From contig NZ_MRWE01000040.1 of assembly GCF_002093665.1 (NCBI RefSeq), positions 1 through 44,336 of the forward strand: 44,336 bases of DNA, read 5' to 3'. The position numbers were made by a program, and so were the translations under genes. This DNA comes from Rouxiella badensis. Lineage in GTDB: Bacteria > Pseudomonadota > Gammaproteobacteria > Enterobacterales > Enterobacteriaceae. Under the pieces are notes generated by a model that made no database searches, was not told the origin of the DNA, and saw only the letters and a list, made by a program, of their open reading frames with translations. Each line of letters starts with the position of its first letter. Positions within the stretch are counted from its first letter, which is position 1. Below, piece after piece: positions 9,601 through 38,421 of this stretch.

Positions 9601-12600
9601 ATCGCCGGTGGCGTCAATCTTATTGTGCACCCGATGAAATACTATCAACTCGGGCAGAGCCAGTTCCTGTCGAGCGACGGTCGCTGCCGCGCCTTTGGTG
9701 AAGGCGGCGACGGCTATGTGCCGGGCGAGGGAATGGGCGCGGTGCTGCTTAAACCCCTGCAACAAGCCCTCGCTGACGGTGACCAAATCTATGGCGTTAT
9801 CAAGGCGACCGCGATTAATCACGGCGGCAAAACCAGCGGCTTTACGGTGCCGAATCAAGCGGCGCAGAGCAACGTTATCAGCAACGCCTTCGAGCGCGCG
9901 GGCTGGGAGCCTGCCTCGGTCGATTACATCGAGGCGCACGGCACCGGCACCATGCTTGGCGATCCTATCGAGATTTCCGGCCTGTCCAAAGCCTTCGCAC
10001 GCATCAACACCGAAAAGGGTATTCAGGGCTTTCCGACGCCGGGTCACTGCCGCATCGGGTCGGTGAAAAGCAACATCGGCCATCTTGAGTCTGCGGCAGG
10101 CATTGCCGGACTGACCAAGATTCTGCTGCAAATGCGCCATCGCCAGTTTGTGCCGTCACTGCATTCACAGACGCTAAACAGCCGAATCAACTTTGAGACC
10201 TCAACCTTCCGCGTGGTGCAATCGCTTGAAGACTGGGCCTCTGCACCGGGTACTCCCCGTCGTGCGGGCCTGAGTGCCTTTGGCGCGGGAGGTTCGAACG
10301 CCTCGGTCTTAATAGAAGAAGCGCCGACGTTATCCGCAAACGCGTTACCTACCGGCGAATCCTACCTGTGGGTTCTCTCGGCGGACAGCGAAACGCGTTT
10401 GTCGCGCTACGTGGAACATATGATTGTCTTCCTCGACAAGGCGGTGAATACCCCTGAGACGGCACCGAGTCTGGCCTCTCTGGCGTTCTCCTCGTTAATC
10501 GGCCGTGAGGCGATGACCGAACGTCTTGCGGTGGTGGCAAGCAGTCTGGGCGATCTGCTCGGCAAGCTTGAGCAATACCGCGACGAGGGAAGCGCGCAAC
10601 AGCTTTTCCGTGGGCGCATCGCGGGCAGTCAAGACCGTCTGGATACTATTCTCGATGGCACGCAGCTCAATGAACTGGTGTCCGGGCTGGTGCAGCAACG
10701 CCAGCTGGTGCGTTTGGGGCGTTTGTGGACCACCACGCTGGATGTCAATTGGCAGCAGTTCGCCAGACCGCTCTGTGATAACCCGGAAACTGCGGGAAGC
10801 GTGCGTCGGGTTTCTTTCCCCCCTCTGCCGCTGATGACGCGGCGTCATTGGCTGGCGCAGCCTTCCGAACAGGCTTTGCAGGGCCGCGTTAACTCGCTGC
10901 ATCCGTTGATTGACGAGAATATCTCAACGCTGTCTCAGCAGAAATTCAGCAAGCAGTTGACCGGTCAGGAAACCTATCTGCGCGACCACCTGATTGGCAG
11001 CGATAAAGCGCGCATGATTCTGCCAGGCTCTGCCTATGTTGAAATGATCCATGCGGCAGGGCAGTTAGCCATTGAAAACGATTGGAAAGTCGCCGCTATT
11101 CGCCACCTGATGTGGATGAACTCCGTCGAGGTGGACGCCGAACCGGTTGAGATAGCTATCGACTTGGTTCATCTGGACGGTGAAAGCGTCAAAGTCGCGG
11201 TAAACAACCTCAACACCGCCGTGCTGTCGGTCGAGGCAGAGTTGGTGTATCGCTCGCAACAGGTCGAGATTGCCGATGAATGGATCGATCTTGACGCGCT
11301 GCGCAGCCGGGGGCTGTTGGAAAACGATCGCGCCGCCCTGTATGCCGAGTTTGCGAAAATGGGCTTCGCCTATGGTCCAAGCTATCAGGTGACCCACGAA
11401 CGCTATCGTTTTGCAGACGCCGCGCTGAGTTATCTGCGCCTGCCTGACTCCGTGTCATCGGCCGATGCGTTTTATCTGCATCCTTCACTGCTGGACGGCG
11501 CACTGCGCACCTGCCTGGCCGTGGGACTGACGCCGGTTGAATACGCGACCCCGATTGTGCCGTTTTATCTTGGCGAACTGGAATTCCGCCATCCGCTTGG
11601 CAGAGAGTGCTACGCCTACGTGACCCGAACGCAGTCGACGGTTACAGACAGCCATGTTCAAAAGCATGACATCACGCTGGTTGATACCGACGGACGGGTG
11701 CTGGCACGCCTGAAAGAGTTTGCGGCACGCCGTCTTGAAAAGGAAACGACTGCAACCCCACGCCCGGCGCAGCAGGACGTACAGTATTATGGCTATGACT
11801 GGCAGCCGTCACCGTTAGCGGCTTCGACGCCGCTCGTTGAGGCGGCGCGGGTTCTGGTACTGGCCGATGATAGCGAACTGGCCGACGCCCTGCGCGAGCT
11901 TTACGGCGAGCGGGGCAGTGTGATTACCGTGACCCACGGCGCTGCCTTTGAGCAGCATGACGTCAGTCGTTTTAGCGTCGATACTCAGTCTCCGTCGAGC
12001 CTTGAGGCACTGTGCGCACAGCTGAAGTCCCAGCAAACGTGGCCGACGCATATCGTGCATGCGGTGGGCGCTGACCTGCATTTTGACCATTTGGTGGAGT
12101 CTGGGATCCCTTCCATACTGCACGCTGGTTTACAGTCGTTACGCCATCTGTTTGTGGCGTTGGAAAAAGCGCAGCCGAGGCAGGTGATGCGCTGTGTGAA
12201 CGTCTATCGCGCACAGTCCTCTCAGGTTGAGCCACAGCATGACGCTATCAGTGGCTATGCGCGTTCGCTGTTGACCATCAATCACCGGTTTGAACTCTTC
12301 ACGCTGCGCAGCGATGCCGATACTGCGGCGGCGCTCGCGACGCAAGTCTATCAGGAATTTGTACAGCGTCTGGCCTCGCTCCCTGGACTTGAGCTGGCTT
12401 ACCGGCAGGGTCAACGCCACCAGCGCCAGCTCACCGAAATCGTGCCGCCGAAAGCCGAGGGCTTGGGGTCTGTCGAACCACTGCCTCTGGTACGCGGCGG
12501 GCATTATTTAATTACCGGCGGTGCGGGCAAGTTGGGGCTGCTGATGGCGCACTATCTGGCGTCTCGTTATCAGGCCCGGGTGGTATTGAGTGGTCGTTCA

Positions 12601-15600
12601 GCCCAGATAAACCATGAGGTTCAACAGCAGATTGCCACGATGCGTGAGCAAGGCGCTGAGGTGTTGTATGTCGCGGCGGACGTCGCGCTGTACGGGCAGG
12701 CAGAGTCCCTGCTGGCTGAGGCGAAAGCGGCATTTGGTGCGTTGAACGGCGTGCTGCACTGCGCCGGTGTTGCCAGCGATACGCCGATGACCGAGCTGCA
12801 AGAGGCTGAATTCAATGCACTGATTGGCCCTAAAATCGACGGACTGGTGGCGCTTGACCGCGCCACGGCGCAGGAGCCACTGGCGGTATTTATCAACTTC
12901 TCCTCCGTTTCTGCGGTGCTCGGAGATTTGGGTTCAGGGGCTTACGCGGCGGGCAATCGCTTTATGGATAGCCATGCGCTGTGGCGTAATCAACAAGTCA
13001 GCAAAGGGCGGCGGTCCGGTCAGAGCCTCTCCGTTAACTGGCCGCTGTGGGCCAGCGGCCAAATGAATATTGCCGCAGAGGACGCTTCGCTGTTTGAGTT
13101 CTCGGGCATGGCGGCCTTGCAGCAAGAGGCGGGGATTATTGCCCTGGAGCGCGCTCTGCTCGAACAGCGCCCCGAATTGCTGGTGGCGGTGGGAGACCGT
13201 AATAAGGTGGCCCGCGCGCTGCGCATCCCGTTCAACGACGTGGTCGACGTTGCGCCATCGTTGCCCGTGAACAGCGCGCCCGCTCGCGTTGAGCCAACAA
13301 AAAACAATGACAGTGCCTATCTGCACAGCGAGAACGCGCTGAGGCAACACATCTCTACCGTCACCAAAATCCCGGCGTCTGATATCGCCGTGGATGCCAC
13401 CTTTGAGCAACTCGGTATGGACTCCATCATGCTGATGGAGCTGCGTGCGTTGCTTGAGAAGGAGTACCCGGGACTGTCGAAAACGGCACCGTTCGAGTAC
13501 AACACGACCGCCAAGCTTGCCGGATACCTGTGCGAGCGTTACGGTGTCACGCAGTCGACGCCTTCGGTGGCCACGGTCAATCACCGTCCGGCTAGCGCAA
13601 CAGCGGCACCGGCATTCAAACGCGCACTCACCGCTGCGACAGTTAACGTCTCGGGTTCGCCTTTTGCTCGTGCGGCCTCGCTTTCTTCAACGCCCGCCGA
13701 TGCAGACAGCGACGCCGTGGCGATTATCGGTCTGGCGGGCGAGTTCCCCGGCGTCGACAATTTGACCGACTTCTGGGCAACGCTTCAGGCTGGCAAAGAG
13801 AATCTGACCGCTATTCCGCCCGCGCGCTGGGCCGCTGTCGAGGACGACAACGGCAATCCACGCTACGTCAATCGCGGTGGGTTCCTCAACAAGGCAAACG
13901 TCTTCGATCCTGACATGTTCCGCATGAGCAGCGAGGAGGCAAGCCGCCTCGATCCCCAGGTGCGCGTGCTGCTGCGTTCCGCCTGGCACGCGCTGGAAGA
14001 TGCAGGATATACGCCGTCGGCGCTCAAATCCCAGCAGGTTGGCGTCTACGTCGGCGCGATGAATGAAGACTTCACCTGGGTGATGTCCGAATACTATGCC
14101 CGCACTGGGAATTATCCGGGCGCAGGCTCGGTGGTCAGCGAGCTCGCCAACCGTATTTCTTTCCTGATGGACCTGCATGGCCCGAGTTTTAGCGTAGCGA
14201 CCACCTGTGCTTCATCGCTGACCAGCGTACATATCGCGCGCAAAGCCATTCTCGGCGGCGAGTGCGATATGGCGTTGGCCGGTGGCATCAACCTGAGCCT
14301 GCACCCCAGCAAATACATGCTGCTGCAGGACATGAAAGTGCTGTCTTCCGATGGCAAAGAACACACCTTTGACGAGCGCGCCAGCGGCCTGATCCCGAGT
14401 GAAGGCAGCGGAATTGTGGTGCTAAAACGCCTGAGCGCGGCGCTGGCCGACGGTGACACCGTCTATGGCGTGCTGCGCGGTTCAAGCATCGGTCATGCGG
14501 GAACCGGCGCGGGGCAATATCTGCCCAATCTGGCGGTGATGGAAGAAACCGCCGCGCGGGCGCTGAAAGAATCGCGCATTGATGTCAATGAGCTGACCTA
14601 TATCGAGAGCCATGGTGCGGCGACCGAGTTGGGGGACCCTATTGAGCTGAAGGCGTTGTCCAACGCGCTGCGCCGCCAAACCGAGGCGCAACAATTCTGC
14701 GCACTGGGGACCAAGGCTAACCTCGGGCATATGGAAGCAGCATCGGGTATCTGTTCATTAATCAAGGTGTTGTTGAGCATGCAGCATGGCCGCCTGTCGC
14801 CGTGCGTCAACCTTAAAAACGTCAATGCTTCGTTCGAGCACCAGACCTCACCGTTCCTGTTCCCGCACGAGGCGCGGGCTTGGGACACCAACGGTCGCGG
14901 CACGCGTATCGCCGGGATCAACTCCTACGGTATGGGAGGCTCAACGGCGTTTGTGGTGGTCGAGTCTGCGGAGCAGGTGTTGATGCAAAGCCCTCGTCCG
15001 ACGCCCGCCGAGAATGCGCCGCAAATAGTGGTGTTGTCTGCCCAGCGCGCCGAGCGTCTGCTGGCCTACGCCGCCGAGATGCACGACTTTGTCGAGCGAC
15101 AGGGCAGTACGCTGCGTCTCGCCGACCTTGCCTATACCAGTCAGGTTGGACGCATCATGCTTGAAAATCGCCTGGCGATTGTGGCCGTCGACGCCGCCGA
15201 CCTGCTGGCGAAGCTTGAGCGTTTTATTGCGCATCCTGAGGCCACGCACGGTGATGCAGACATTCACAGCGGCAACGTTCACGACGCTAAAGAAGTCTCG
15301 CAGCTTGTTGCCGGTGAGGCCGGTAAGCATTTCATCACGGCGCTGCTGCAAAGCCAGCAGCTTGGCCGAGTGGCCACTCTGTGGTGCCGTGGCTGCGAGG
15401 TTGACTGGAGCCTGCTGCACCTCAACGCCTCACGCCGCCGCGTGGCCTTCCCAGGCTATCCGTTCGCCAATCAACCTTGTGACCTCAACGCCGCGCTGGC
15501 GCTCGATATCTCGCGCCGTAAAGCCCGCAACAGTGAGTTGGAGGCCATGAAACGTGCCGCAGAGAACGTACTCCCAGCGGTACCGCAGGCGTGGTTTGCC

Positions 15601-16422
15601 AGCACGATTGCCGAGTGCCAGGCCTCCGCGCTTGACGACGAGGCGCTGCACGCTTTCTGGGCTGAACAACTCCACGCCGAAGATGATGTGGGTTCGCTGA
15701 TTGCCCCGGCACTGTTGGGTGGCGCAGAGGCGTTGGACGCCGAGGACGCAGAGCAGCCTCTCATTAACGTCGAGAGACAAATCAGCCAGGACACGGTTGA
15801 TGCGCTGCAAATCTGTACCCAACGCCTACAGGTAACTCTCGAAACGCTGGTGGTTGCGGGCTGGGCGCTGCTCGCTAACCGACACGTGCGCGTCAAGCTC
15901 TCTCAGTTTGGCGTGATCCGCGGTTTCAACAATGAGGCGCTGCGGGTCATCCCTGCACGCGTTCAGGTAGTAGGACGCCACAAGGTCGGGCCATGGCTCG
16001 GCAGCGTTGAGCAGCAGCTGGAGAAATATCTTGAGCATGCGGCCGCCACCCTTGGGCAGATAGAGCACTGGGTTGATGACGCGCCGCTGTTTGACAGCGC
16101 GGTGGCCATCCTCGACGACAGCGCGACTGTCAACGTGAACGATGCCGTCGCCGTGCTCTTTGCCGTGCAGCCGGATTTGCATTTGGCGCTGTTGGTCAGC
16201 GTCGAGGCGCACAGCCTGAGTCTGCGTATTGACTGTCGTGGGTTAGACACCACGGAAGATAATCTGAATCAACTGCTCGAACAGTGGGTCACTCTGCTTG
16301 AGGGCTTAGCCACTCACCTGGACAAAAATCCTGCCGCACTCCCGATGCGCAGCAAAGGCGAAGGACGCAAGGCCTTCTGGAAAACGCTTGAACAACTTAA
16401 CCAGCAAGAGCAACTGTCATGA
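667..16422 (+). CDS. Trans-AT polyketide synthase, four ketosynthases, 5251 residues
   Basis: Builds a polyketide chain from malonyl units supplied by the separate AT at 19035; no AT domain is present. Domains by residue: KS1 1-430 (C171, H306, H352); DH1 about 620-900 (HQIDGQAILP at H644, D804); KR1 (TGGMGALG; IED at the LDD position suggests B-type); ACP1 S1440; KS2 about 1527-1967 (C1699, H1834, H1874); DH2 with altered motifs (HRLGDNRILP, DGAFR); ACPs S2494 and S2594; a degenerate ACP with T2705; KS3 about 2788-3220 (C2956, H3091, H3139); DH3; KR3 (TGGAGKLG, no LDD); ACP3 S4253; KS4 about 4349-4765 (C4514, H4649, H4688, divergent motifs); then a condensation-domain C-lobe about 4985-5235. 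Each KS is followed by the flanking linker typical of trans-AT lines. ATG 667 is the only possible start because TAA at 658-660 is in frame just upstream; its ribosome site is weak. No loading domain precedes KS1 and no ER is seen. Confidence 0.95.
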   Translation: MDIAIIGVSCQFPDAKNYIEFWGNIVNHRNSVTKVAAVDKETASLSRESLQWPDASENRWAALVNTVDGFDNQFFGIIPKVAETMDPQQRIMLELTWSCLEDAGIMPSTLRGNKVGVIIGVFNNDYKELQENANNPVEAHHSTGTATSIIANRISHFFDFHGPSIAIDTACSSSLNAMHAAIQAINQGDCEMAISGGVNLILTSTRHQSFAKMGMLSPTGACHSFDSNADGYVRGEGAGVLLLKPLEKALADGDVIHGVVKGSAINHCGTSYTLTYPSADAQAEVIVAANTQAGVPVNSIGLVEAHGTGTPKGDPIEFEGLTQAFNALAQQQGVTLDDAFCGLTSVKSNIGHLEAAAGVAGVIKILQAFKHRKLPPLRNFTTLNPRIDAASTPFYFVEQEKDWQRIDAATPRRAGVSSFGFGGTNAHVVLEEAPEPVRRRPAKGKSASRNGYFIALSAKSPAALLQRQKDLIQWLRENPKASLGDVSATLLTRREHFAYRYGCVGQDIHNIINELEKSVAEGPLSLEHPAAADQAQKAAAEAAVLFEAISTTDASAVTPLLLKMSECYARGATLDWSPLFKGADPQCVALPTYPFVHAPFWITPRDNAASPQPALRAQPQRVVNVGSSRYKTVLQSDEFFIADHQIDGQAILPGVMSLEWVRAAFADALTLADASALTFSQVTWLRPFTCQGKAADIIIQLDPHPSEEQRLFQLLGSDDKIYCHGTVGLSSEARPAVPVATMADDARTLDETACYQRLESLQMCYGAGMRSISHLTFDEHAGVANLTLPAAQPADFIIHPSMADGAVQAAVVWVSEKLRSGQQATEQGPLVIPFSLEALALLQPCSAAMTATVTLAGETTLRDEVIKVDIHLTEAHNPENTALIFKGLCLRVLNDGLAAKEPTKTVQRSNVPPQGAHLYQPHWVEKALPEADASVEQIVLVGSEQDVERFARLIAQSQAATRIQRILFAAAPQINADPQTARVRPGNSDDFVAAVDALLAQGATFRQVLWVSAELANDDFALRLSTGPYSLFALTQALMRKVKKVNFVHFHQADASLPDVAAISGFYRTLRVEKPDYIGRVVHCDNDFNLHPLPALIYREFADVSKDADVRYVKGTRQVRRFVAAANAAGLNLSGSAPAALRPQGIYLITGGMGALGLIFARFLCSAYGATVYLSGRSALDESRQQQLDALSELGGKALYVACDIGDAASVQALLETIRAAGHRLNGIIHSAGVIEDNFILRKSREAFERVVTPKTLGTWLLDQATRDLPLDFFVLFSSVTGVLGNMGQCDYAFGNAFEDDFSRERNARQQRGERSGKALSLNWPYWKDGGMRLTDKEEGFLKNQFGIVPLLTDDGIAVFNYALQSGASQMVVMPGEAARINEVLGVVDITPSEEAVRADSGQSQQDIVIRYLSELFARKLQIPAHFERHGFFRDYGFDSVVVIELVNELKKTFGSSLPMTLFFEHQTMEELSRFLLENYDEVCRGLVGAPLASSRVIPAQRAATPAVDFVREVSPGQSGVQNNDDDIAIVGIAGRYPEADSLEQFWNNLAQGRDCVIEVPAERWNARWYKEGAATPGKSYSRWGGFLSGVERFDPRYFNISPKETEIMDPNEWLFLETVTHAIEDAGYTADKLTPSTAGRENRVGVYVGMMWGDYQLHAHASPEDQWTTSHSSYWSVANRVSHFFNFSGPSMALDTACSSSLTAIHVACNAIRSGDVPVAIAGGVNLSLHPYKYHLLSNMHFLSSDGRCRSFGEGGTGYVPGEGVGAVVLKPLSQARRDGDHIYGIIRGTSVNHGGKTSGFTVPNAKRQADLIVDALTTAKVNPRHISYVEAHGTGTKLGDPIEISGLNKAFSIAGDSTKYCAIGSVKANIGHLEAAAGMSALTKVLLQMKHQTLVPSIQSKAVNPFIDFQSGPFRIQQSLEPWPRPVLAVTESSGSTVTKEIPRIAGISSFGAGGSNAHLIVEEYIEPKADPADEGKPALIVLSARRETALRTMAEQLADFMAQHADLSLQDIAYTLQVGRVAHEYRVALVAEVAADAVNLLRAYARQQLSGIMTGHRDNARQATDTPPLAEWITLGRLGALGEAWANGHGVDWAQLHAAQLRRRVSLPGYAFQRQDCWAPTLPAERTDSFLPGAAALHPLIDSNVSTLASQAFRKSLRASEFLLNDHRLGDNRILPAAAFIEMALSASELALLGNVLPQAGAKPVLSRVHDLTWRQPILVSGDALEIEIALTPSQGGLDFDIYRHEGEKRHVFGSGRLCEETAPSPKPVELQRLLTRGQLYERDDIEAAFKQRGFSFGPAFQVIERLYTQADEALSELKFPDYLQITPLVQPFILPPSLLDGAFRTALGIGGLDAGVKTLEVPVALAGLQVCKPVAGIRYAYARRNVEPGAAAMTASYDICLLDSVGDVVVSITRLQTQAVPQLGMKVSAVAQSAKPAAQFTASPVSAQPLAISSREALINTLISHVIDVTRLDAGDVSATAPLAEYGLDSMMILALNERLSSAFENLSQTLFYEYQDLASLADYLLEQHPQYDAPLTETASLPSNVNAPVSRSVRDGVLDYLIAGVIAVTRLDEDEVQPATELANYGLDSMMILALNEKLAATFGEVSQTLFYEYQDIDSLADFLCESYPRQAAALQPATVEVIATPPLLPDSGQAATNMADAQEVSAISDRLFDSLVTAIGAAAANCSALMPLHQWPLDTVSQMRLQHELDARFNGVNARSVFLYNTLVEWAMALQATQAPAVMAQHPQPPVQPTLASLLNGSRLDAGQRRPQGASNAENTQHDIAVIGLSGRYPGAKNVEEFWANLTAGVDSVTEIPLSRWDYRKHYSPQRGPKDKVYSKWGGFIDDIEQFDSQYFNISPREAELLDPQERLFLQTAWECVSDASYSRHSLSQSRVGVYVGVMWGQYQFIETTAEQYQTGFPMSLHSSVANRVSFYFNLNGPSVALDTMCSSSLTSLHMACQAIQSGDCKMAIAGGVNLIVHPMKYYQLGQSQFLSSDGRCRAFGEGGDGYVPGEGMGAVLLKPLQQALADGDQIYGVIKATAINHGGKTSGFTVPNQAAQSNVISNAFERAGWEPASVDYIEAHGTGTMLGDPIEISGLSKAFARINTEKGIQGFPTPGHCRIGSVKSNIGHLESAAGIAGLTKILLQMRHRQFVPSLHSQTLNSRINFETSTFRVVQSLEDWASAPGTPRRAGLSAFGAGGSNASVLIEEAPTLSANALPTGESYLWVLSADSETRLSRYVEHMIVFLDKAVNTPETAPSLASLAFSSLIGREAMTERLAVVASSLGDLLGKLEQYRDEGSAQQLFRGRIAGSQDRLDTILDGTQLNELVSGLVQQRQLVRLGRLWTTTLDVNWQQFARPLCDNPETAGSVRRVSFPPLPLMTRRHWLAQPSEQALQGRVNSLHPLIDENISTLSQQKFSKQLTGQETYLRDHLIGSDKARMILPGSAYVEMIHAAGQLAIENDWKVAAIRHLMWMNSVEVDAEPVEIAIDLVHLDGESVKVAVNNLNTAVLSVEAELVYRSQQVEIADEWIDLDALRSRGLLENDRAALYAEFAKMGFAYGPSYQVTHERYRFADAALSYLRLPDSVSSADAFYLHPSLLDGALRTCLAVGLTPVEYATPIVPFYLGELEFRHPLGRECYAYVTRTQSTVTDSHVQKHDITLVDTDGRVLARLKEFAARRLEKETTATPRPAQQDVQYYGYDWQPSPLAASTPLVEAARVLVLADDSELADALRELYGERGSVITVTHGAAFEQHDVSRFSVDTQSPSSLEALCAQLKSQQTWPTHIVHAVGADLHFDHLVESGIPSILHAGLQSLRHLFVALEKAQPRQVMRCVNVYRAQSSQVEPQHDAISGYARSLLTINHRFELFTLRSDADTAAALATQVYQEFVQRLASLPGLELAYRQGQRHQRQLTEIVPPKAEGLGSVEPLPLVRGGHYLITGGAGKLGLLMAHYLASRYQARVVLSGRSAQINHEVQQQIATMREQGAEVLYVAADVALYGQAESLLAEAKAAFGALNGVLHCAGVASDTPMTELQEAEFNALIGPKIDGLVALDRATAQEPLAVFINFSSVSAVLGDLGSGAYAAGNRFMDSHALWRNQQVSKGRRSGQSLSVNWPLWASGQMNIAAEDASLFEFSGMAALQQEAGIIALERALLEQRPELLVAVGDRNKVARALRIPFNDVVDVAPSLPVNSAPARVEPTKNNDSAYLHSENALRQHISTVTKIPASDIAVDATFEQLGMDSIMLMELRALLEKEYPGLSKTAPFEYNTTAKLAGYLCERYGVTQSTPSVATVNHRPASATAAPAFKRALTAATVNVSGSPFARAASLSSTPADADSDAVAIIGLAGEFPGVDNLTDFWATLQAGKENLTAIPPARWAAVEDDNGNPRYVNRGGFLNKANVFDPDMFRMSSEEASRLDPQVRVLLRSAWHALEDAGYTPSALKSQQVGVYVGAMNEDFTWVMSEYYARTGNYPGAGSVVSELANRISFLMDLHGPSFSVATTCASSLTSVHIARKAILGGECDMALAGGINLSLHPSKYMLLQDMKVLSSDGKEHTFDERASGLIPSEGSGIVVLKRLSAALADGDTVYGVLRGSSIGHAGTGAGQYLPNLAVMEETAARALKESRIDVNELTYIESHGAATELGDPIELKALSNALRRQTEAQQFCALGTKANLGHMEAASGICSLIKVLLSMQHGRLSPCVNLKNVNASFEHQTSPFLFPHEARAWDTNGRGTRIAGINSYGMGGSTAFVVVESAEQVLMQSPRPTPAENAPQIVVLSAQRAERLLAYAAEMHDFVERQGSTLRLADLAYTSQVGRIMLENRLAIVAVDAADLLAKLERFIAHPEATHGDADIHSGNVHDAKEVSQLVAGEAGKHFITALLQSQQLGRVATLWCRGCEVDWSLLHLNASRRRVAFPGYPFANQPCDLNAALALDISRRKARNSELEAMKRAAENVLPAVPQAWFASTIAECQASALDDEALHAFWAEQLHAEDDVGSLIAPALLGGAEALDAEDAEQPLINVERQISQDTVDALQICTQRLQVTLETLVVAGWALLANRHVRVKLSQFGVIRGFNNEALRVIPARVQVVGRHKVGPWLGSVEQQLEKYLEHAAATLGQIEHWVDDAPLFDSAVAILDDSATVNVNDAVAVLFAVQPDLHLALLVSVEAHSLSLRIDCRGLDTTEDNLNQLLEQWVTLLEGLATHLDKNPAALPMRSKGEGRKAFWKTLEQLNQQEQLS
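8040..8572 (+). repeat. Tandem ACP duplication in PKS module 2
   Basis: Two ACP domains lie head to tail with carrier serines at 8146 and 8446, exactly 300 bases apart. Both contain YGLDSMMILALNE and SQTLFYEYQD and differ only modestly elsewhere, so they arose by a recent duplication or are kept alike. Tandem ACPs in trans-AT lines often raise throughput or mark beta-branching modules, but no HMG-CoA-synthase-type beta-branching genes are in this window. Confidence 0.85.
8680..8900 (+). other. Degenerate third ACP-like domain, carrier Ser replaced by Thr
   Basis: Residues about 2672-2745 of the PKS line up with the two preceding ACPs: PLHQWPLDTVSQMRL matches PLAEYGLDSMMILAL, and SVFLYNTLVEWAMAL matches TLFYEYQDLASLADYL. 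The residue at the phosphopantetheine position is T2705 (codon 8779-8781). It should not carry a prosthetic group and may be structural or a relic. Confidence 0.65.
15631..16410 (+). other. Condensation-domain C-lobe at the PKS C-terminus
   Basis: About 250 residues with the pattern of the second half of an NRPS condensation domain (FWAEQL, then TLETLVVAGWALLANR, GPWLGSVEQQL, LFDSAVAIL). The first half with the HHxxxDG motif is absent, so it cannot catalyse amide formation alone. It follows KS4 directly with no ACP between. It may be a docking or scaffold element or the remnant of a deleted C domain. Confidence 0.65.
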
Positions 16423-17438
16423 AAGTATTGATCACCGGCGCAAACGGATTCGTTGGCCTTAACGTGGTAAAAGCATTAGTCGCCGCACAGCATCAGGTGA
16501 CCGCCTATGTTCGAGCGTCCTCCAACGTGAGTTTTCTGGTGCCTTTCGGCGTCACTCTGGTACGCGGCGAGCTGCACGACAGTGCGGCGTTACGCGCGGC
16601 AATGGCTGGGCAGGACGCCGTCATTCATACGGCGGGCAATACCAGCAGCAATCCCCGCGACTGGCCGCTTCTCGAGGCGGTAAATATCGAAGGGACTCGC
16701 CGGGTGACTGACGCAGCGCTGGAAACCGGGATAGCTCGCCTGGTGTTCACCAGCACCACCTCGACGATAGGGGCGCGCAACAATCCTCAGGTCGAGTCGA
16801 CCGAGGAAACCCCGTTGCGCGGTTTTCGCGTCAATAATCCCTATGCCAAAAGCAAATTACAGGCCGAGGAGTGCGTCTATCGCGCCTGCGATCGCGGTCT
16901 GTCCGCCGTCATTCTCAATCCTGCCGAAGTGCTGGGCGCCTACGACTACTCTATGCAGTGGGGCCGTATGGTGCTGGCGGTGACCTACAATCAGTTGCCG
17001 TTTATGCCTCCGGGCGGGGCCAGCTTCTGTGGCGCAGCAGCCGTCGCCGAAGCACACGTCAGCGCATTGACCCAAGGGACCGCAGGCGAGCGTTACATCA
17101 TCGCCGGTGTGAATGTGCGTTATACCGAGCTCATCAAGACGATTGAGGCGGTCACCCAGTGTCAGGTCTCTCTCCCCCAGACCCCGTATTCGTATTTCTA
17201 TCTCAAAACGTGGCTGCAGGAAAAATTCCCGCGACTGATCCCCGGCGAACCGGTGTTAGACGCCTATCGCCTGCGGGTGTTCAAAGGAAGCTATTACTTC
17301 AGCAGCGCCAAAGCAGAACGTGAACTGGGCTATCAGCCTGCTTCCCTGAGTCAGATGGTGGAGGAGTGCGCCACCTGGTACAGGGCTAACGGTTTTATTG
17401 CTTCCGCGCCGTCGGAATCTCTCGCAGTGACAGAATAG
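16419..17438 (+). CDS. NAD(P)-dependent extended SDR reductase (3-beta-HSD / dihydroflavonol reductase-like)
   Basis: Predicted cytoplasmic oxidoreductase of 339 residues. The N-terminus holds the Rossmann motif GANGFVG (residues 7-13); the catalytic motif is YAKSK (Y142, K146), preceded by a Ser/Thr-rich strand ending FTSTTSTIG. Its ATG overlaps the PKS stop as ATGA, so the two genes are translationally coupled. With the oxoamine synthase and ACP that follow, it matches the gene set of bacterial sphingoid-base pathways, where an epimerase-like reductase (CerR) reduces the ketone made by serine palmitoyltransferase. I infer it reduces a beta-keto or alpha-amino ketone intermediate. Substrate and cofactor preference cannot be read from sequence. 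Confidence 0.85.
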   Translation: MKVLITGANGFVGLNVVKALVAAQHQVTAYVRASSNVSFLVPFGVTLVRGELHDSAALRAAMAGQDAVIHTAGNTSSNPRDWPLLEAVNIEGTRRVTDAALETGIARLVFTSTTSTIGARNNPQVESTEETPLRGFRVNNPYAKSKLQAEECVYRACDRGLSAVILNPAEVLGAYDYSMQWGRMVLAVTYNQLPFMPPGGASFCGAAAVAEAHVSALTQGTAGERYIIAGVNVRYTELIKTIEAVTQCQVSLPQTPYSYFYLKTWLQEKFPRLIPGEPVLDAYRLRVFKGSYYFSSAKAERELGYQPASLSQMVEECATWYRANGFIASAPSESLAVTE

Positions 17439-17459
17439 ACAACCAAGGGGGTTTTTATA

Positions 17460-18704
17460 ATGGATTTCCATGAGCTGATAGAACTGGAACGTAAGCCTTT
17501 CAAAGAGCGCGTGAAATTGCGCTACAGCGCCTATCTGAAAGAGCTAGAGAAAGGCTTTATGTTTGGACGTCAGGGCGACGGACCCGTCGATGCGCAGATG
17601 TACTACAAGGATTTGCACAGCGACACCTTCAACAACGTGCTGGTGTTTGGCTCAAACAGCTATCTGGGACTGGCCAACCATCCTTACGTGAAAAACAAGG
17701 TGGTCGAGGCGGTAGAGAAATTCGGTATTGGCACCGGCGGTTCACCGGCTTTTTCGGGCTATACCCGACAGCACAAAGAGTTGGAAAAGCGTCTGGCGGC
17801 GTTAGCTGGCCATGAAGATGCCGTGCTGTTGCCGAGCGGATACATGGCCAACCTGTGCTGGGTCAATGGCCTGATGAATCGCAACGATATCATCGTCTAC
17901 GACCAGAACAGTCATGCCAGCGTAATCAACGCCATCAAAATGACCAGCGTGCCGTTCTACACCTTTGACCCGGAACGTCTGGAGGATTTCGACCAGATGC
18001 TGCACAAGATTCGTGAGCGCACCAAGCCGGGCACGCAGATTTTCTCGACGGTGGAAGGCGTGCGCTCGACCGACGGATCGATCATCGACCTCCGGCGTTA
18101 CATCGAAATCTGCCGCGCGCACGACATTATCACTATCCTCGATGACGCGCACGGTCTGGGCACCGTGGGGCCAACCGGCAAGGGAACGCTTGAGCATCTG
18201 GATCTGCTGGGTCAGGTTGACCTGCGTATGTCCACCTGTAGCAAATCGCTCGGCGCACAGGGTGCCTTCGTTTCCGGCAAAAGCGAGTACATCTTTATGC
18301 TGCGCCACTTTGCTTATCCTTACCTGTTTACCTCCGGCCTGGCCCAGCCGACGATCGCGGCGATTTCCGCTGCGCTGGACGTGATGGAAAAAGAGCCGGA
18401 GCGCATTGAGCGTCTGCATGACAACGTGCGCTACATGCAGGACCAGCTCGAAGCGAAAGGCTTCAACATCCTTCGCGGGCAGTCCGGGATCATTCCTGTT
18501 TTCTTCGAAAAAATCTCCGTGGTGGGCAACATCAATCGCCGTCTTTTTGAACGCGGTGTCTTTGCCAACATCATGGAATACCCGATGGTGCCGCCCGACA
18601 AAGAACGCCTGCGTATTTCCGTCATGTCTTCTCATACCCGTGACGAGATAGACAGGGCTGTCGAGATTATTGCCGAAGTTGCGCGCGAATTTGACGCGCT
18701 GTAA
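17460..18704 (+). CDS. Alpha-oxoamine synthase (PLP; serine palmitoyltransferase / AONS family)
   Basis: A 414-residue fold-type I PLP enzyme. Family members condense an acyl thioester with an amino acid, losing CO2, to give an alpha-amino ketone. Visible motifs: FGSNSYLGL and GTGGSPAFSGY in the N-terminal part, NSHAS, DDAHGLG (D228-H231, Asp where Glu is usual) and SKSLGAQG with the PLP lysine K262. A strong ribosome site (AAGGGGG, 17445-17451) lies 8 bases before ATG 17460. The ACP gene follows within 26 bases and probably presents the acyl group. In a PKS setting such enzymes release the chain (compare the oxoamine synthase parts of prodigiosin and saxitoxin pathways). Amino acid choice (Ser, Ala or Gly) is unknown. 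Confidence 0.9.
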   Translation: MDFHELIELERKPFKERVKLRYSAYLKELEKGFMFGRQGDGPVDAQMYYKDLHSDTFNNVLVFGSNSYLGLANHPYVKNKVVEAVEKFGIGTGGSPAFSGYTRQHKELEKRLAALAGHEDAVLLPSGYMANLCWVNGLMNRNDIIVYDQNSHASVINAIKMTSVPFYTFDPERLEDFDQMLHKIRERTKPGTQIFSTVEGVRSTDGSIIDLRRYIEICRAHDIITILDDAHGLGTVGPTGKGTLEHLDLLGQVDLRMSTCSKSLGAQGAFVSGKSEYIFMLRHFAYPYLFTSGLAQPTIAAISAALDVMEKEPERIERLHDNVRYMQDQLEAKGFNILRGQSGIIPVFFEKISVVGNINRRLFERGVFANIMEYPMVPPDKERLRISVMSSHTRDEIDRAVEIIAEVAREFDAL

Positions 18705-18713
18705 TCGAGTGGA

Positions 18714-18720
18714 TTGGGAG
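18714..18720 (+). promoter_or_regulatory. Ribosome binding site that sets the GTG start of the ACP
   Basis: TTGGGAG lies 9 bases before GTG at 18730. The same frame stays open upstream to 18670 inside the oxoamine synthase gene, but that extension lacks a ribosome site and would add 20 residues not expected in an ACP. Confidence 0.6.
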
Positions 18721-18729
18721 ACAAAAACA

Positions 18730-18996
18730 GTGGATCAAAAAGACATTCTGAGCGTGGTTCTCGACACAATTAACGATATCAAGAACACCGGTTTTACCCC
18801 TGACGTCGTGGATTTAGAGGCATTTCTTGGGGGGGAATTGGGCGTGGATTCCGTCGAGATGCTCGAGTCCTGGTACGAGATTGAGAAGAAGCTGAACATC
18901 AAGGTTAACGACAGCGAAAAGCGGGCGATTTACACGCTCGGTGACCTGATTGGCAAGATTGAAGCGCATCTTCCTGCCGAAGCCGTCAAATCCTGA
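18730..18996 (+). CDS. Free-standing acyl carrier protein
   Basis: An 88-residue type II carrier protein. The phosphopantetheine site is S41 in GVDSVEML; the flanking acidic helices and total length are normal for the family. GTG 18730 was chosen because of the ribosome site at 18714-18720. It sits between the oxoamine synthase and the trans-AT gene, as dedicated ACPs do beside bacterial serine palmitoyltransferases. Likely roles are to take the chain from KS4, which has no ACP of its own, and hand it to the oxoamine synthase, or to carry the starter for KS1. A phosphopantetheinyl transferase gene is not in the window and must be supplied elsewhere. Confidence 0.88.
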   Translation: MDQKDILSVVLDTINDIKNTGFTPDVVDLEAFLGGELGVDSVEMLESWYEIEKKLNIKVNDSEKRAIYTLGDLIGKIEAHLPAEAVKS

Positions 18997-19034
18997 ACGA
19001 AATGACAATCCTGGGAAACAGTAATAGGCGACTT

Positions 19035-20906
19035 ATGTCTTCTTCAATTTGGGTATTTCCTGGTCAAGGATCGCAGCACAAAGGGATGGGAGAGGCGCTG
19101 TTTGCGCGCTTCCCAGACCTGGTCAACGAGGCTGATGAGGTTCTCGGTTATTCGATTCGCGAGCTGTGCCTCGAGGATCTCAACGGGGTGTTGGGCGAAA
19201 CGGAATTCACCCAGCCCGCGCTGTTCGTGGTTTCAGCGCTCTGCCTGCTGGCCCAACGTGAGGACGGGTTGGCGGCTCCGCAGTGCTATGCGGGCCATAG
19301 CCTGGGAGAGTTTGCCGCGCTGTTTGCCGCCGGGGCGTTTGACTTCGCCACCGGTGTCGCGCTGGTGAAAGAGCGCGGCAGGTTGATGTCGACGGCACCG
19401 AGGGGGGCGATGGCGGCCGTGGTCGGTCTCACGCAGGCGCGGGTGGCCGAACTGATCGCCGGATCGGCATTTAACGGTATCGACATCGCCAACGTCAACT
19501 GTGCGCAGCAAATCGTGATTTCCGGGCTTTATGACGACATCGTTGCCTGCGAAACGCTTTTTACGCAGGCGGGAGCGCGCTACGTGAAGCTGAACGTGAG
19601 TGCAGCATTCCACTCTCGCTACATGCGCGATATCGAACAACAGTTTAAGCAGTTTGCACAAAGCTTCACTTTCAACCCGCTTAATGCGCGGGTTATTTCA
19701 AACTACACGGCGCTCGACTATCCACAGACCGATTATCTCTCTCTGTTAACCCGGCAGATAAGTCATCCGGTTCGCTGGTACGAGAGTATTTCTCGCCTGC
19801 TGGCGCAGGGCGAGGTCAGTCAGCAGGAGATTGGGCCGGGGCAGGTATTGACCAGCCTGTTCGCCAAAATAAAGGCCCAGCCGATGACGCTGTCGGCAGA
19901 GCCAAAGGGGCTAAACGCGGCCAGCGCCGCCAAACCGCGCGTGGTGTTTATGTACGGCGGGCAGGGCGCGCAGTATTACGGCATGGGCGCTGAACTTTAC
20001 CGACGCAACGCTGCTTTCCGCAGCCAGATGGACCAGTGCGATGCACTTTATCGCCAGCACACGGGGCACAGCCTGCTGGAGCCGCTGTATGACGAGACGC
20101 GCCGCCACCTGCCGCTCACCGATGTCGTCTTGTCGAATGCGGCGCTGCTGAGCGTGGGCGTCAGCCTGACCCGCGTGCTTGGCGCGGAAGGGGTTGAACC
20201 CGGCGCAGTGGTGGGCTACAGCCTCGGTGAGTGCATCTCGGCGGTGGTTGCGGGCGTTTTGACGCTGGACGACGCCATGAAACTGCTGGTGAATCAGGCG
20301 CGCCTGCTGAGCGAAAAAACCGCCGGCGGCGGCATGATGAGTGTGCTCGCGCCGGTGGATCACTTCCACGCCCATTCTGCGCTGTACCAGCACACCGAAT
20401 TAGCCAGCATCAACTTCCAGAAAAATTTTGTGGTCAGCGGGGAGCTCCAGCGTCTTGCTGCACTGAAGGAACAGCTGACCCAACAACAGATTATCTCGAT
20501 GCTGCTGCCGGTCGAGCAGCCTTTCCACTCCGCCGGGATAGCCGCCATCGAACAAGATTTCCGCGCGCTGGTGGGGACGTTAGCCATACAGACATCGTCC
20601 CTGCCGGTGTACTCCGCCATGTCAGGAACGTCGGTGGCGCGGTGGGACGACGAGTATTTCTGGCGAGTCCTGCGGGACAGGGTCGATTTCTTCAGTTTGA
20701 TGAAGGTTTTGAGCGAGAACAGCGACGCATTTTTTGTCGATCTCAGCCCGAGCGGCACCTTGTCAACCTTCCTCAAATACGGTTTTCCAACGCTTATTCA
20801 GCACGGTACGGCTATCAATCAATTCGGCAGGAACGTCGAAAGCGTATCTAACTTACTGAATGAGCTTAAAAAACATTCCGAGCAAGCTGTCACGGAGGGA
20901 GCGTAA
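19035..20906 (+). CDS. Trans-acting malonyl acyltransferase fused to acyl hydrolase (AT-AH)
   Basis: Supplies malonyl units to the AT-less PKS and probably clears stalled acyl groups. It has two FabD-type domains. AT1: FPGQGSQ, nucleophile in GHSLGEF (codon 19299), the carboxylate-binding Arg in ERGRLM (codon 19374) and AFHS, all consistent with a malonyl transferase. Domain 2: GGQGAQY, nucleophile in GYSLGEC (codon 20220), Gln in NQARLL (codon 20295) where malonyl ATs have Arg, and PFHS. Arg to Gln is the hallmark of PedC-type acyl hydrolases. The frame also has ATG at 19002, which would add 11 residues with almost no ribosome site; ATG 19035 follows AGGCG closely and begins just before the fold, so I prefer it. 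Confidence 0.92.
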   Translation: MSSSIWVFPGQGSQHKGMGEALFARFPDLVNEADEVLGYSIRELCLEDLNGVLGETEFTQPALFVVSALCLLAQREDGLAAPQCYAGHSLGEFAALFAAGAFDFATGVALVKERGRLMSTAPRGAMAAVVGLTQARVAELIAGSAFNGIDIANVNCAQQIVISGLYDDIVACETLFTQAGARYVKLNVSAAFHSRYMRDIEQQFKQFAQSFTFNPLNARVISNYTALDYPQTDYLSLLTRQISHPVRWYESISRLLAQGEVSQQEIGPGQVLTSLFAKIKAQPMTLSAEPKGLNAASAAKPRVVFMYGGQGAQYYGMGAELYRRNAAFRSQMDQCDALYRQHTGHSLLEPLYDETRRHLPLTDVVLSNAALLSVGVSLTRVLGAEGVEPGAVVGYSLGECISAVVAGVLTLDDAMKLLVNQARLLSEKTAGGGMMSVLAPVDHFHAHSALYQHTELASINFQKNFVVSGELQRLAALKEQLTQQQIISMLLPVEQPFHSAGIAAIEQDFRALVGTLAIQTSSLPVYSAMSGTSVARWDDEYFWRVLRDRVDFFSLMKVLSENSDAFFVDLSPSGTLSTFLKYGFPTLIQHGTAINQFGRNVESVSNLLNELKKHSEQAVTEGA

Positions 20907-20909
20907 TCA

Positions 20910-21645
20910 ATGACTATGGTGCAGGATAATATGCTCTTGCCGCGCGAAGAGACGGCGTTGGCGTACTGGGAACAGTACCTGAGCGGCGCGCAAAGAACAG
21001 CGAACGCCAATCTGGCAAATGCCGCCGACACTGAGGCGGCAAACGCGGCCTCTTCGTCGCCGCAGGCGCGCGTCAGTGTGCTTGTTGCGCCGGTTCCGGC
21101 GGCGCTGAGCACCGCGCTTCTGTCGCAGGTTCAGCGTGAGTCACTGTCGCTGGAGGTTCTGCTGTCGGCCGCATGGGGTCTGCTGCTGAGCAAGTACAGC
21201 GGCGAAGAGGACGTGCTGTTTGGCATACAGCTTTCAGATGCTGAAGCGCAGGCGAGCCAGGCGTTTCCCGTGCGGATGCACCTCGATGCCGACCTCGCCC
21301 TGAGCGACTGGTTTAATGATATTGCCGACATGTTCGAGCAGCATCAGCGTCATGCCGACGCCTTGCCTGCCGGTGTGCAGGCCAACGAAGCGCTTTTCGA
21401 ATCGCTGATCAGTGTGCATCGCGCCGCGTCTACAGAATACGTCTCCGCGCCGTTGCAGCTGATTTTGCATGCCGGTAGCGAACTGTCGCTGGAGCTGCGT
21501 TATGGGGCGAGCGACTTCGGCGATGCCGATGCACAGAATCTTCTCTATCGCGTACAGCAGCTATTGACCTGCTTTACGCAGGGCGAAAAGCGCACCCTTG
21601 GCGAACAGTCTCTGCTCGGCCGCGATGAAATCGACCGCGTTATTG
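20910..21645 (+). other. Condensation-domain C-lobe at the NRPS N-terminus
   Basis: The first about 245 residues resemble the second half of a C domain (LAYWEQYLSG, then LEVLLSAAWGLLLSKYSGE, DWFNDIADMF, ending LLGRDEIDRVIEQWNATE before A1). The N-lobe with HHxxxDG is missing. A C domain that should join the polyketide to the first amino acid is therefore incomplete, unless a partner protein supplies the other half. Confidence 0.7.
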
Positions 21646-24600
21646 AACAGTGGAATGCCACCGAGCTGGACGTGGCGCTGGACCGCTCACTCTACACGCT
21701 GTTTGCCGAGCAAGTCGCGGCCAGAAACGAGGCAACGGCGCTGGTGGCGGACGATGTGCGTCTCAGCTATCGGCAGCTGGCCGACCGAGCCAGACAGATT
21801 GCCGCCGGGCTGCGCCACGTGGGTGTCGCTCAGGGCGATCGCCTGGTGCTGAGCATGGACAAGTCGCCGGAGCTGATCGCTGCCATGCTGGGGATTATCA
21901 AACTCGGAGCGGCCTATGTCCCGATTGCTCTGGACGCCCCGAGCGAGCGCCGTGCGTTTATCATCAACGACGCGCAGGTACGCTGGACGCTGACGACGCG
22001 GGCGGATGCTCCCCGCTTCGCCGAGCAAGAGAGCAGCACTTTGCTGTTCGTCGATGATTATCTCGTTCAGGTCGAGGACCAGGATGAACCTGTTGACGCC
22101 ATCGATTCACGCACCATTGCCTACATCATCTATACCTCGGGCACCACCGGTACGCCGAAAGGCGTCGAGATTGCGCAGCGCAGCCTGATCAACTTCTGCG
22201 CCTGGTGCGAACACCTGGGCATTTTCAGCGCCGGGCAGCCCATTACTCAGTTTGCGCCTTATACCTTCGATGCGTCAGCAGGGGAGATTTTTGGCACGCT
22301 AACGCGTGGCTGCGAACTGCACCTCCTGTCGAATGCGCTTATCCAAAATCCTCCCGCGTTGACGGCGTATATGGTTGAAAACGACATTGGTTTTTCGGCC
22401 TTCCCGCCTCCTTATCTGGCGCATCTCGACCCGGCGCAGGTACCAGAGGGCATGACGCTGCTCACTGCCGGTTCAGCCCCCACTCTGGCGCTGATTGAGC
22501 GCTGGAGCGAGCGTTGTCGCTATATCAACGGCTACGGTCCGACCGAAACCACTATTATGTCCTCGGCATGGATGCGGGGCTTTGAGCAGACTCAGGAGAG
22601 TCGTCTGAGCATCGGGCGACCGATTGCCAATACCCGGATGTACGTCGTCGATAACTTCGGGCAGCTTTGTGCACCGGGGATGGCGGGCGAAATCTGGATA
22701 GGCGGCGAGGGTGTCGCGGTGGGCTACGTTAATCGCCCTGAGCTGACGGCCCAGCAGTTTATTGCCGACCCCTGGGTGGCGGGCGCTAGGGTCTATCGCA
22801 CCGGGGATATTGGGCGCTGGTTTGAAGACGGCCGCATCGAGTTCCTCGGGCGTCGTGACCACCAGATCAAGCTGAGCGGTTACCGTATCGAGCTCGGTGA
22901 AATCGAGTCGCGCATTGCGGCGCTGGCGCAAATCAAGGAAGCCACCGTGATAGGTCTGTTGCCAGAGTCGGGCGAGGCGCGTCTGGTGGCCTATGTCGTC
23001 GCGGAAAAACCTTGCGGGAATGAGGTGATTGCGCAGTGGCGTGAGGTGCTCGCCACCCAGCTGCCTGGTTATATGATCCCGGCGGCGTTCGTGGTGATGG
23101 ACTCGTTACCGCTGACCGCCAACGGCAAGATTGACCGTAAAGCGCTGCCGTTGCCGGATAACAGCGCTTACCTTCAGCGTGACTTCGACGCGCCACGCGC
23201 CGGAACGGAAACCGTACTGGCAAAGCTGTGGCAGACCTTGCTCGGCGTTAATCAGGTGGGTCGTCAGGACAACTTCTTCGAGCTAGGTGGCCATTCGCTG
23301 CTGGCGATGCAGCTGAAGGCGAAACTGCTTGAGCAGAACCTGTATACCGATGTACCGACGGTCTTCGCGTATCCGGTGCTGGCCGAGCTTGCGGTACACA
23401 TCAGGCGGGAAGAGGATGCCGCATCGACGTTTGCCGTCCCGGCAAATCTGATTGCGCCGTCGACTACCGCGCTGCATCCCGAGCATTTTCCGTTGGTCTC
23501 GCTTACGCAATCGCAGATAGACCACATCGTGGCGCGGGTCGCGGGAGGCGTCGCCAATATTCAGGATATCTATGCGCTGGCACCGCTACAGGAAGGCATT
23601 CTCTTCCACCACCTGCTCGAGGAGCAGGGCGATCCTTATCTACAGCGTGGACATTTGTCGTTTACCCATCGTGAGACGCTGGATAATTATCTTGCGGCGC
23701 TTCAACGGGTGATTGAACGCCATGACATCCTGCGCACCGCCTTCATCTGGGAAGGGCTGGAGAAGCCGGTGCAGGTCGTCCTGCGTCAGGCGCGTTTGCA
23801 TGTGCAGGAGCTTCAGCTGGATGCCGATGCCGTCGTAGAGCAGATGAAGGCGCGTCTTGACCCTGACGTCCACCGCATTGACCTGACCCAACCGCCGTTA
23901 CTGCATATATTAGTGGCTTATGATGAAACGCAGGCGCGTTGGCAAGCCTTGATGTATATCCACCATCTGGTGGAAGACCTCGCCTCGTTGCAGATTATCC
24001 TCGGTGATATTCAGGCGTTTCTCAGCGGTAGCGGCGTAAGCCTGCCTCCGGCGACCGCATTCCGTCAACACGTGGCGCAGCTGCGCCTGCACGCCGACGG
24101 CCAACAGCAGCGGGCCTTTTTTGCCGAGATGCTGGCGGACATTGAAGAACCGACGATGCCGTTTAATCTCAAAACCGGTCACCTTCACGGGCAGCGCATC
24201 ACCGAAACCCGTAAACCGCTTGCGGCACCGTTGGCAGAGCGTTTACGTCATCAGGCTCGCCGTCTCGGGGTCAGCCTGAGCAGCCTGTGTCATCTAAGCT
24301 GGGCGCGCGTGCTGGGCGCAGCCAGTGGACGCGACACGGTGGTGCTGGGCACGGTGCTTTCAGGGCGGATGCAGGGCAAGGACAGCGATAAGATTCTGGG
24401 TCCTTGCATCAATACGCTGCCGCTGCGTCTTGAGGTGGGTGGCATCGGGGCCGTCGATGCCGTTCGCCAGACGCATAAGCGCCTCACCGCGCTTATCAAA
24501 CACGAGCACGCGACGTTGTCGCTGGCGCAGCAAGGCAGTGGGATAGCGCCTCCGACGCCGATGTTCAGCTCGGTATTCAACTACCGTCACAACCGTCCTA

Positions 24601-37040: not shown

Positions 37041-37071
37041 CACTATCGAAAAATATAATGAGTGAGTGGAA

Positions 37072-38352: not shown

Positions 38353-38421
38353 GCCCATGCGAGTCAGGAGGCTGAAGTTAAGGACATCAAGGGATTGCCG
38401 CGCCAGTGAGGGAGTGAGTTG

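Follow-up and report, generated by a model that had tools for sequence, protein, structure and literature searches.

The sol locus of Rouxiella badensis

Contig NZ_MRWE01000040.1 of Rouxiella badensis (assembly GCF_002093665.1), analysed here over its full 44,336 nucleotides (the window), carries the solanimycin (sol) cluster, in which orthologues of SolI, SolJ and SolL (932.9, 450 and 917.9 bits against NCBIfam cut-offs of 850, 350 and 780 respectively) lie together with polyketide synthase (PKS) and non-ribosomal peptide synthetase (NRPS) genes. Solanimycin is an antifungal whose cluster was published in 2022–23, and the gene set and order of the window are the same as those of solA-solL in Dickeya solani. 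Our subject is the group of genes that follows the trans-acyltransferase PKS gene solA, namely solB, encoding an extended short-chain dehydrogenase/reductase (SDR), solC, encoding a pyridoxal phosphate (PLP) enzyme of the alpha-oxoamine synthase (AOS) family, and solD, encoding a stand-alone acyl carrier protein (ACP). The cluster itself is already known from the literature; the function assigned in print to SolC is probably wrong, and the reaction proposed below differs from the role published for the D. solani cluster.

A preliminary description of the window had read this region as an oxoamine synthase with its own ACP and reductase placed between a PKS and an NRPS, and this much holds. All three open reading frames (ORFs) lie where it had put them, K262 of SolC stands within TCSKSLG (codon 18243–18245), and no ACP match follows the last ketosynthase (KS) domain of SolA (KS4, approximately 13717–14961) within that protein. 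The idea that this terminal KS is a dead KS0 is not supported, the window KS4 retaining Cys-His-His. Read from the GTG at 18730, SolD has 88 amino acids and a DSVEM serine; for a longer ORF of 108 amino acids Pfam gave no match and the best NCBIfam ACP model scored 5.8e-8. Coordinates are collected in Table 1.

Table 1. Features of the sol locus and adjoining genes in the window
Feature	Position	Strand	Description
SolA	667..16422	+	trans-acyltransferase PKS, 5251 aa; four KS domains
SolB	16419..17438	+	extended SDR, proposed 3-keto reductase; Pfam Epimerase
SolC	17460..18704	+	AOS-family PLP enzyme; Schiff-base lysine K262
SolD	18730..18996	+	stand-alone ACP, proposed acyl donor for SolC; NCBIfam ACP models
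SolE	19002..20906	+	trans-acting tandem acyltransferase protein; Pfam Acyl_transf_1, two stretches
SolF	20910..27764	+	NRPS: condensation (C) remnant, adenylation (A) domain A*, peptidyl carrier protein (PCP), C, A (Gly-type) with inserted monooxygenase, PCP
A* domain of SolF	21702..23132	+	code DAGALAGIMK
SolI	37066..38352	+	cytochrome P450; in print the oxidase ahead of SolC
Glycosyltransferase	38419..39687		between solI and solJ
GMC-type oxidoreductase	42513..44288	-	directly after solL; Pfam

SolC resembles alpha-oxoamine synthases

Judged by its sequence, SolC looks like a carbon-carbon bond-forming synthase instead of the published aminotransferase. It gave 19 NCBIfam matches, of which the nine best were all AOS families, all under cut-off, with the top four within 4 bits of one another (serine palmitoyltransferase (SPT) 292.5, BioF 289.9, the BioF/Kbl family 289.9 and glycine C-acetyltransferase 288.8 bits). 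No specific transaminase family was found for SolC in Pfam or NCBIfam, where only the superfamily PF00155 and PhnW (2-aminoethylphosphonate aminotransferase, 20.5 bits) appeared. Its best relatives in the PDB are serine palmitoyltransferases, a Thermus AOS and KBL, and we found no paper in the open-licence literature that proposes SolC as an oxoamine synthase.

The preliminary description had called for a phylogeny, and in a tree of 47 AOS proteins, which contained no aminotransferase outgroup and omitted seven of the 16 SPT rows, all 16 SolC-type proteins fall together on a single branch (support 100/100, length 2.39). Its position on the side of SPT is weakly supported (85/81), and it is separate from both Kbl (12 rows) and BioF (four rows), two of each having been scanned with NCBIfam and the others named by tree branch. 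The tree rules out a housekeeping BioF or Kbl identity, and the scores agree (289.9 of the 426 and 252.7 of the 493 bits required); nor is SolC a serine palmitoyltransferase, lying outside the SPT branch and scoring 292.5 and 259.3 bits where the cut-offs are 640 and 500. Eight AOS catalytic residues (the Lys, stacking His, Asp-x-x-His, Asn, Thr, Ser and Arg) are kept in 16 of 16 SolC-type sequences, as are P96-A97-F98 and R202, which are missing from all 33 rows of SPT, Kbl, BioF and 5-aminolevulinate synthase (ALAS) that were counted; S95 and S261 are common to SolC and SPT, not Kbl. Another contig of the same genome (G000:C28:273-1295, L028) encodes an AOS of the 5-aminolevulinate synthase type (TIGR01821, 469 bits; cut-off 338.55).

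SolB matches Pfam Epimerase at 7.5e-34, and the motifs GxNGF[VI]G and YxxxK are retained in all 13 SolB sequences. These form a single clade (100/99) in a 36-row tree, on the side of HpnA (one HpnA-like row scored under the HpnA cut-off), and are split (100/97) from OleD and from eight SDRs encoded beside SPT genes, which carry the label CerR by position instead of by a named sequence; SDR-type threonine dehydrogenases were not among the rows. An extended SDR lies near the SPT gene in eight of 16 SPT loci. The preliminary description had likened the three genes to the trio of bacterial sphingolipid producers, and the resemblance survives in part: an AOS is accompanied by a dedicated ACP and a reductase, much as the rhodobacterial SPT has CerR and its specialised ACP, AcpR (the ACP described in PMC9386255), but SolB is not CerR-like by this tree, SolC falls outside SPT, and the sol acyl chain is PKS-made. 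On the first two of these grounds we dropped the reading of these genes as a sphingolipid pathway.

Conservation of the cassette without a nearby P450

Our scan of a genome collection returned 17 loci, with SolC relatives of 56–92% identity in 15 and of 36% in two. SolA-B-C-D-E are contiguous in 12 of the 15, so that the arrangement noticed in the window is more than chance, and SolD is conserved in all 12. One of these, Lysobacter SJ66, stops at SolE with no NRPS seen, and stood outside the P450 test described below. The remaining three, two from Chitiniphilus and one from Lautropia, have the SolC relative alone beside NRPS genes, the rest of the SolA-E set being absent. These loci (L020, L021, L023) represent a second SolC-like group (56–63% identity) that adjoins NRPS and ABC/FtsX genes; A codes DVATIGVV[LM]K occur in L020 and L023, and the same codes in a Gynuella stretch (L088). 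A plasmid megablast with the DNA of 16419–20906 gave no match, and a plasmid protein search for this region gave 655 records, all below 60% identity.

The published assignment places a P450 ahead of SolC. In a search of 14 genomes for SolI, five matched at E 1e-10, of which only those in Pantoea and Erwinia lie less than 20 kb from SolC. The Pfam P450 model, applied to 12 genomes, found some P450 in seven, none of them near the cassette, the sole P450 on a cassette contig being approximately 444 kb away; five genomes lacked any, including the cassette carriers Lysobacter Bin_5_1 and Cellvibrio mixtus. Hence no P450 lies near the cassette in nine of nine non-enteric genomes tested, and two of these are P450-free assembly-wide by Pfam; the assemblies are drafts, and the absence counts for less where contigs are short (G253, 35.8 kb; G256, 45.8 kb). 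Ten ORFs scanned downstream of the Collimonas, Xanthomonas and Cellvibrio clusters gave no obvious oxidase: six encode transport proteins, two encode phosphopantetheinyl transferases, a ninth a class III aminotransferase, and the last had no match. That SolC persists where SolI is missing speaks against the view that SolC in general acts on something made by a P450; loci of this kind say nothing about the job of SolI in making solanimycin, which requires it.

A conserved adenylation domain follows the cassette

The first A domain of SolF, here called A*, has no predicted substrate in PMC10204066. We read A-domain codes at ten positions, and composed a pattern for A* (D-A-[GA]-A-[LMV]-A-[GA]-[IV]-[LM]) after the codes had been seen. 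It fits 18 of the 46 A domains of sol-type loci and none of 29 control A domains from loci of a 143-genome search (27 outsiders, together with SolG (L106) and SolH (L117) of the window itself). Of the 12 cassette clusters in which an NRPS could be read, 11 contain A*, namely the window, Pantoea, Erwinia, three Lysobacter-type metagenome-assembled genomes, Lysobacter yr284, Collimonas, Xanthomonas and two from Cellvibrio. Seven clusters have two A* domains, the second inside a C-A module, which is also where the single A* seen in Xanthomonas lies. A quick tree that took 12 of the 29 controls, one being the window SolG copy, places the window A* with A* domains that lie internally in other clusters, in a group of 12 rows (SH-aLRT 93). 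The first A* domain from each of six clusters falls into a second, poorly supported group (23).

The first Asp of an A-domain code normally binds the alpha-amino group of the substrate, and where the residues are small the pocket is likely to be large. A* has an amino-acid-type and apparently large-pocket code, and its sequence is the strongest sign that the common substrate is a free alpha-amino acid. Because a domain of this type is conserved after the cassette, the cassette probably makes a free alpha-amino acid, and not the sphingoid amino alcohol that the preliminary description had foreseen; the latter is also disfavoured by the published, largely mass-based structure, which shows an acyl group at that place. 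The NRPSs of Cellvibrio and Lysobacter-type loci L082, L084, L085 and L087 also have in common the code DIWE[LM]TADD, which is probably that of diaminobutyrate, and L082 contains a partial class III aminotransferase gene; these loci may therefore make cationic peptides in which two residues are lipid-like.

A proposed carboxyl-retaining route to a polyene amino acid

The chances seem to us slightly better than even that SolB, SolC and SolD convert the PKS chain to a free alpha-amino-beta-hydroxy acid that is loaded by A*. The basis of this reading is the AOS family of SolC, its intact catalytic residues, the conserved cassette, the lack of a nearby P450 and the conserved A* code, from which we infer each reaction step, the amino-acid partner and the retention of the carboxyl. 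The finished C14 hexaenoyl chain would move from SolA onto SolD, a donor role supported by the existence of serine palmitoyltransferases that prefer a dedicated acyl-ACP (reported in PMC9386255). SolC would then condense hexaenoyl-SolD with glycine, keeping the carboxyl as KBL does (PMC11906848), to give a 2-amino-3-keto acid; alternatively its partner would be aminomalonate, with loss of one of two carboxyls, as reported for fungal SphA. SolB would reduce the 3-keto group, in effect threonine dehydrogenase in reverse, and A* of SolF would adenylate the free long-chain alpha-amino-beta-hydroxy acid as first residue of the peptide.

By analogy, the KBL/threonine dehydrogenase pair, or the use of aminomalonate in the manner of SphA, would offer the simplest oxidase-free route to a free 2-amino-3-hydroxy acid. 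What the KBL pair has in common with our proposal is the reaction type (an amino acid and an acyl thioester, carboxyl kept, with keto/hydroxy interconversion); SolC differs in standing outside the Kbl branch and would take a long acyl-ACP. SphA, an AOS of sphingofungin biosynthesis that according to PMC10936153 takes a polyketide and aminomalonate to an alpha-amino acid, has likewise been named an aminotransferase in print, but is fungal, does not pass its free product to an NRPS, and is a much weaker PDB match to SolC (91 bits) than SPT (225 bits). The SgaA/SgaB system of Pseudomonas fluorescens MYb115 is also a bacterial PKS with an AOS, but uses serine to make sphinganines, and the consulted part of PMC12134224 describes no NRPS with an A* domain.

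Published mutants can be placed on this route. The solB deletion accumulates aminomethyl ketone 6 (m/z 230.154; PMC10204066), and the computed value for the 2-amino-3-keto acid less CO2 is 230.1539, in agreement; this ketone would correspond to the aminoacetone of the KBL/threonine dehydrogenase pair. The solF deletion (named solG in one sentence of the discussion) yields the C14 aldehyde tetradecahexaenal (PMC10204066). This would be the retro-aldol cleavage product of the unused beta-hydroxy amino acid, which would meet the authors' objection that free acid should accumulate in that mutant. We also considered NRPS-tethered glycine as the partner of SolC, and rejected it as accounting for the solF aldehyde and not for A*.

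Several observations weigh against the proposed route, and the main problem is labelling. From feeding of 2H- and 13C-glycine the authors conclude that the N-terminal unit is not glycine-derived (PMC10204066); loss of 2H is expected at an acidic alpha carbon, but loss of 13C is impossible there, and serine or aminomalonate formed from labelled glycine would also carry label. The 13C increments given in the text of that paper (2–3 per dehydroalanine, 2 in glycine, ion M+14) leave the value for the N-terminal group unfixed; the authors' conclusion is nonetheless clear. Secondly, SolI is required and its deletion turns orange like that of solB, and the route offers SolI no role; the orange solI mutant, which it leaves unexplained, takes a little from our confidence. 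The free acid itself goes unreported for the solF deletion, A* is absent from the Gynuella cluster although the cassette is present, and the active-site letters of SolC do not decide between glycine and serine. Finally, the pairing of A* with the SolB-SolC product comes from their co-occurrence in sequence.

Alternative explanations

In the published model, the beta-keto thioester of SolA module 2 is oxidised at C-2 by SolI, SolC acts after this P450 oxidation as a transaminase (PMC10204066), SolB reduces C-3 and the thioester passes on to SolF. We think this unlikely. It draws on the need for solB, solC and solI, deletion of any of which, or of solD, abolishes antifungal activity (PMC9765074, in which the solC deletion suggested by the preliminary description was thus already in print), on the reported lack of glycine label (PMC10204066) and on an analogy with cyclosporin drawn by the authors, and it explains the orange pigment of the solI mutant, which PMC9765074 describes in solB, solI and solK deletions. 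Against this, SolC is AOS-like and unlike any named transaminase family, the cassette exists without a nearby P450, and A* is left without a role.

A little less probable still is a SolC that acts like SPT or AONS, condensing the chain decarboxylatively with serine (or alanine), followed by oxidation of C-1 to the acid, by SolI in the enterics. SPT is its closest side of the tree, albeit weakly, S95 and S261 point the same way, SolI gains a role, and the 2H of [3,3-2H2]serine would vanish on oxidation to the acid; however, no P450 is near the cassette in nine of eleven relatives tested, the ten downstream ORFs hold no obvious oxidase, and 13C fed as glycine would still reach the unit by way of serine.

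The simplest form of the preliminary description is very improbable. Here SolC would condense the chain with glycine, losing CO2, to yield ketone 6 directly, and SolB would make from it an amino alcohol joined to the peptide by a urea-type carbonyl link, isomeric with the published acyl group. The mass of ketone 6 is that of the decarboxylated hexaenoyl and glycine product, and SgaA/SgaB are a bacterial PKS-AOS pair yielding sphinganines (PMC12134224), but A* is conserved and an amino alcohol would offer it no carboxyl, a urea-forming step is not known in the solanimycin cluster, and C-2 of glycine would still give label.

Neighbouring genes

The window differs from D. solani in the glycosyltransferase gene after solI, a configuration that PMC9765074 describes for other strains. 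Its product bears a weak likeness to the rifamycin-inactivating Rgt (NCBIfam, 105.7 bits; cut-off 800), and the gene may serve product variation or self-protection. The GMC-type oxidoreductase gene lies on the opposite strand.

Implications

If the carboxyl-retaining route is true, the published role of SolC would be corrected and the first A domain of SolF would gain a function. More broadly, we put at just short of an even chance the existence of a portable bacterial cassette (SolA-E with A*) for free polyene alpha-amino-beta-hydroxy acids. An oxoamine synthase that keeps the carboxyl, followed by a reductase, would divert an ACP-bound polyketide to this end, and NRPSs would take up the resulting lipid-like amino acid as they do any other building block, even twice for the same peptide. 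The combination of SolB-C-D with the A* code would then be a sequence rule that predicts long-chain amino acids, and, in the Lysobacter, Collimonas, Cellvibrio and Xanthomonas clusters, for which we found no published product, the rule would apply.

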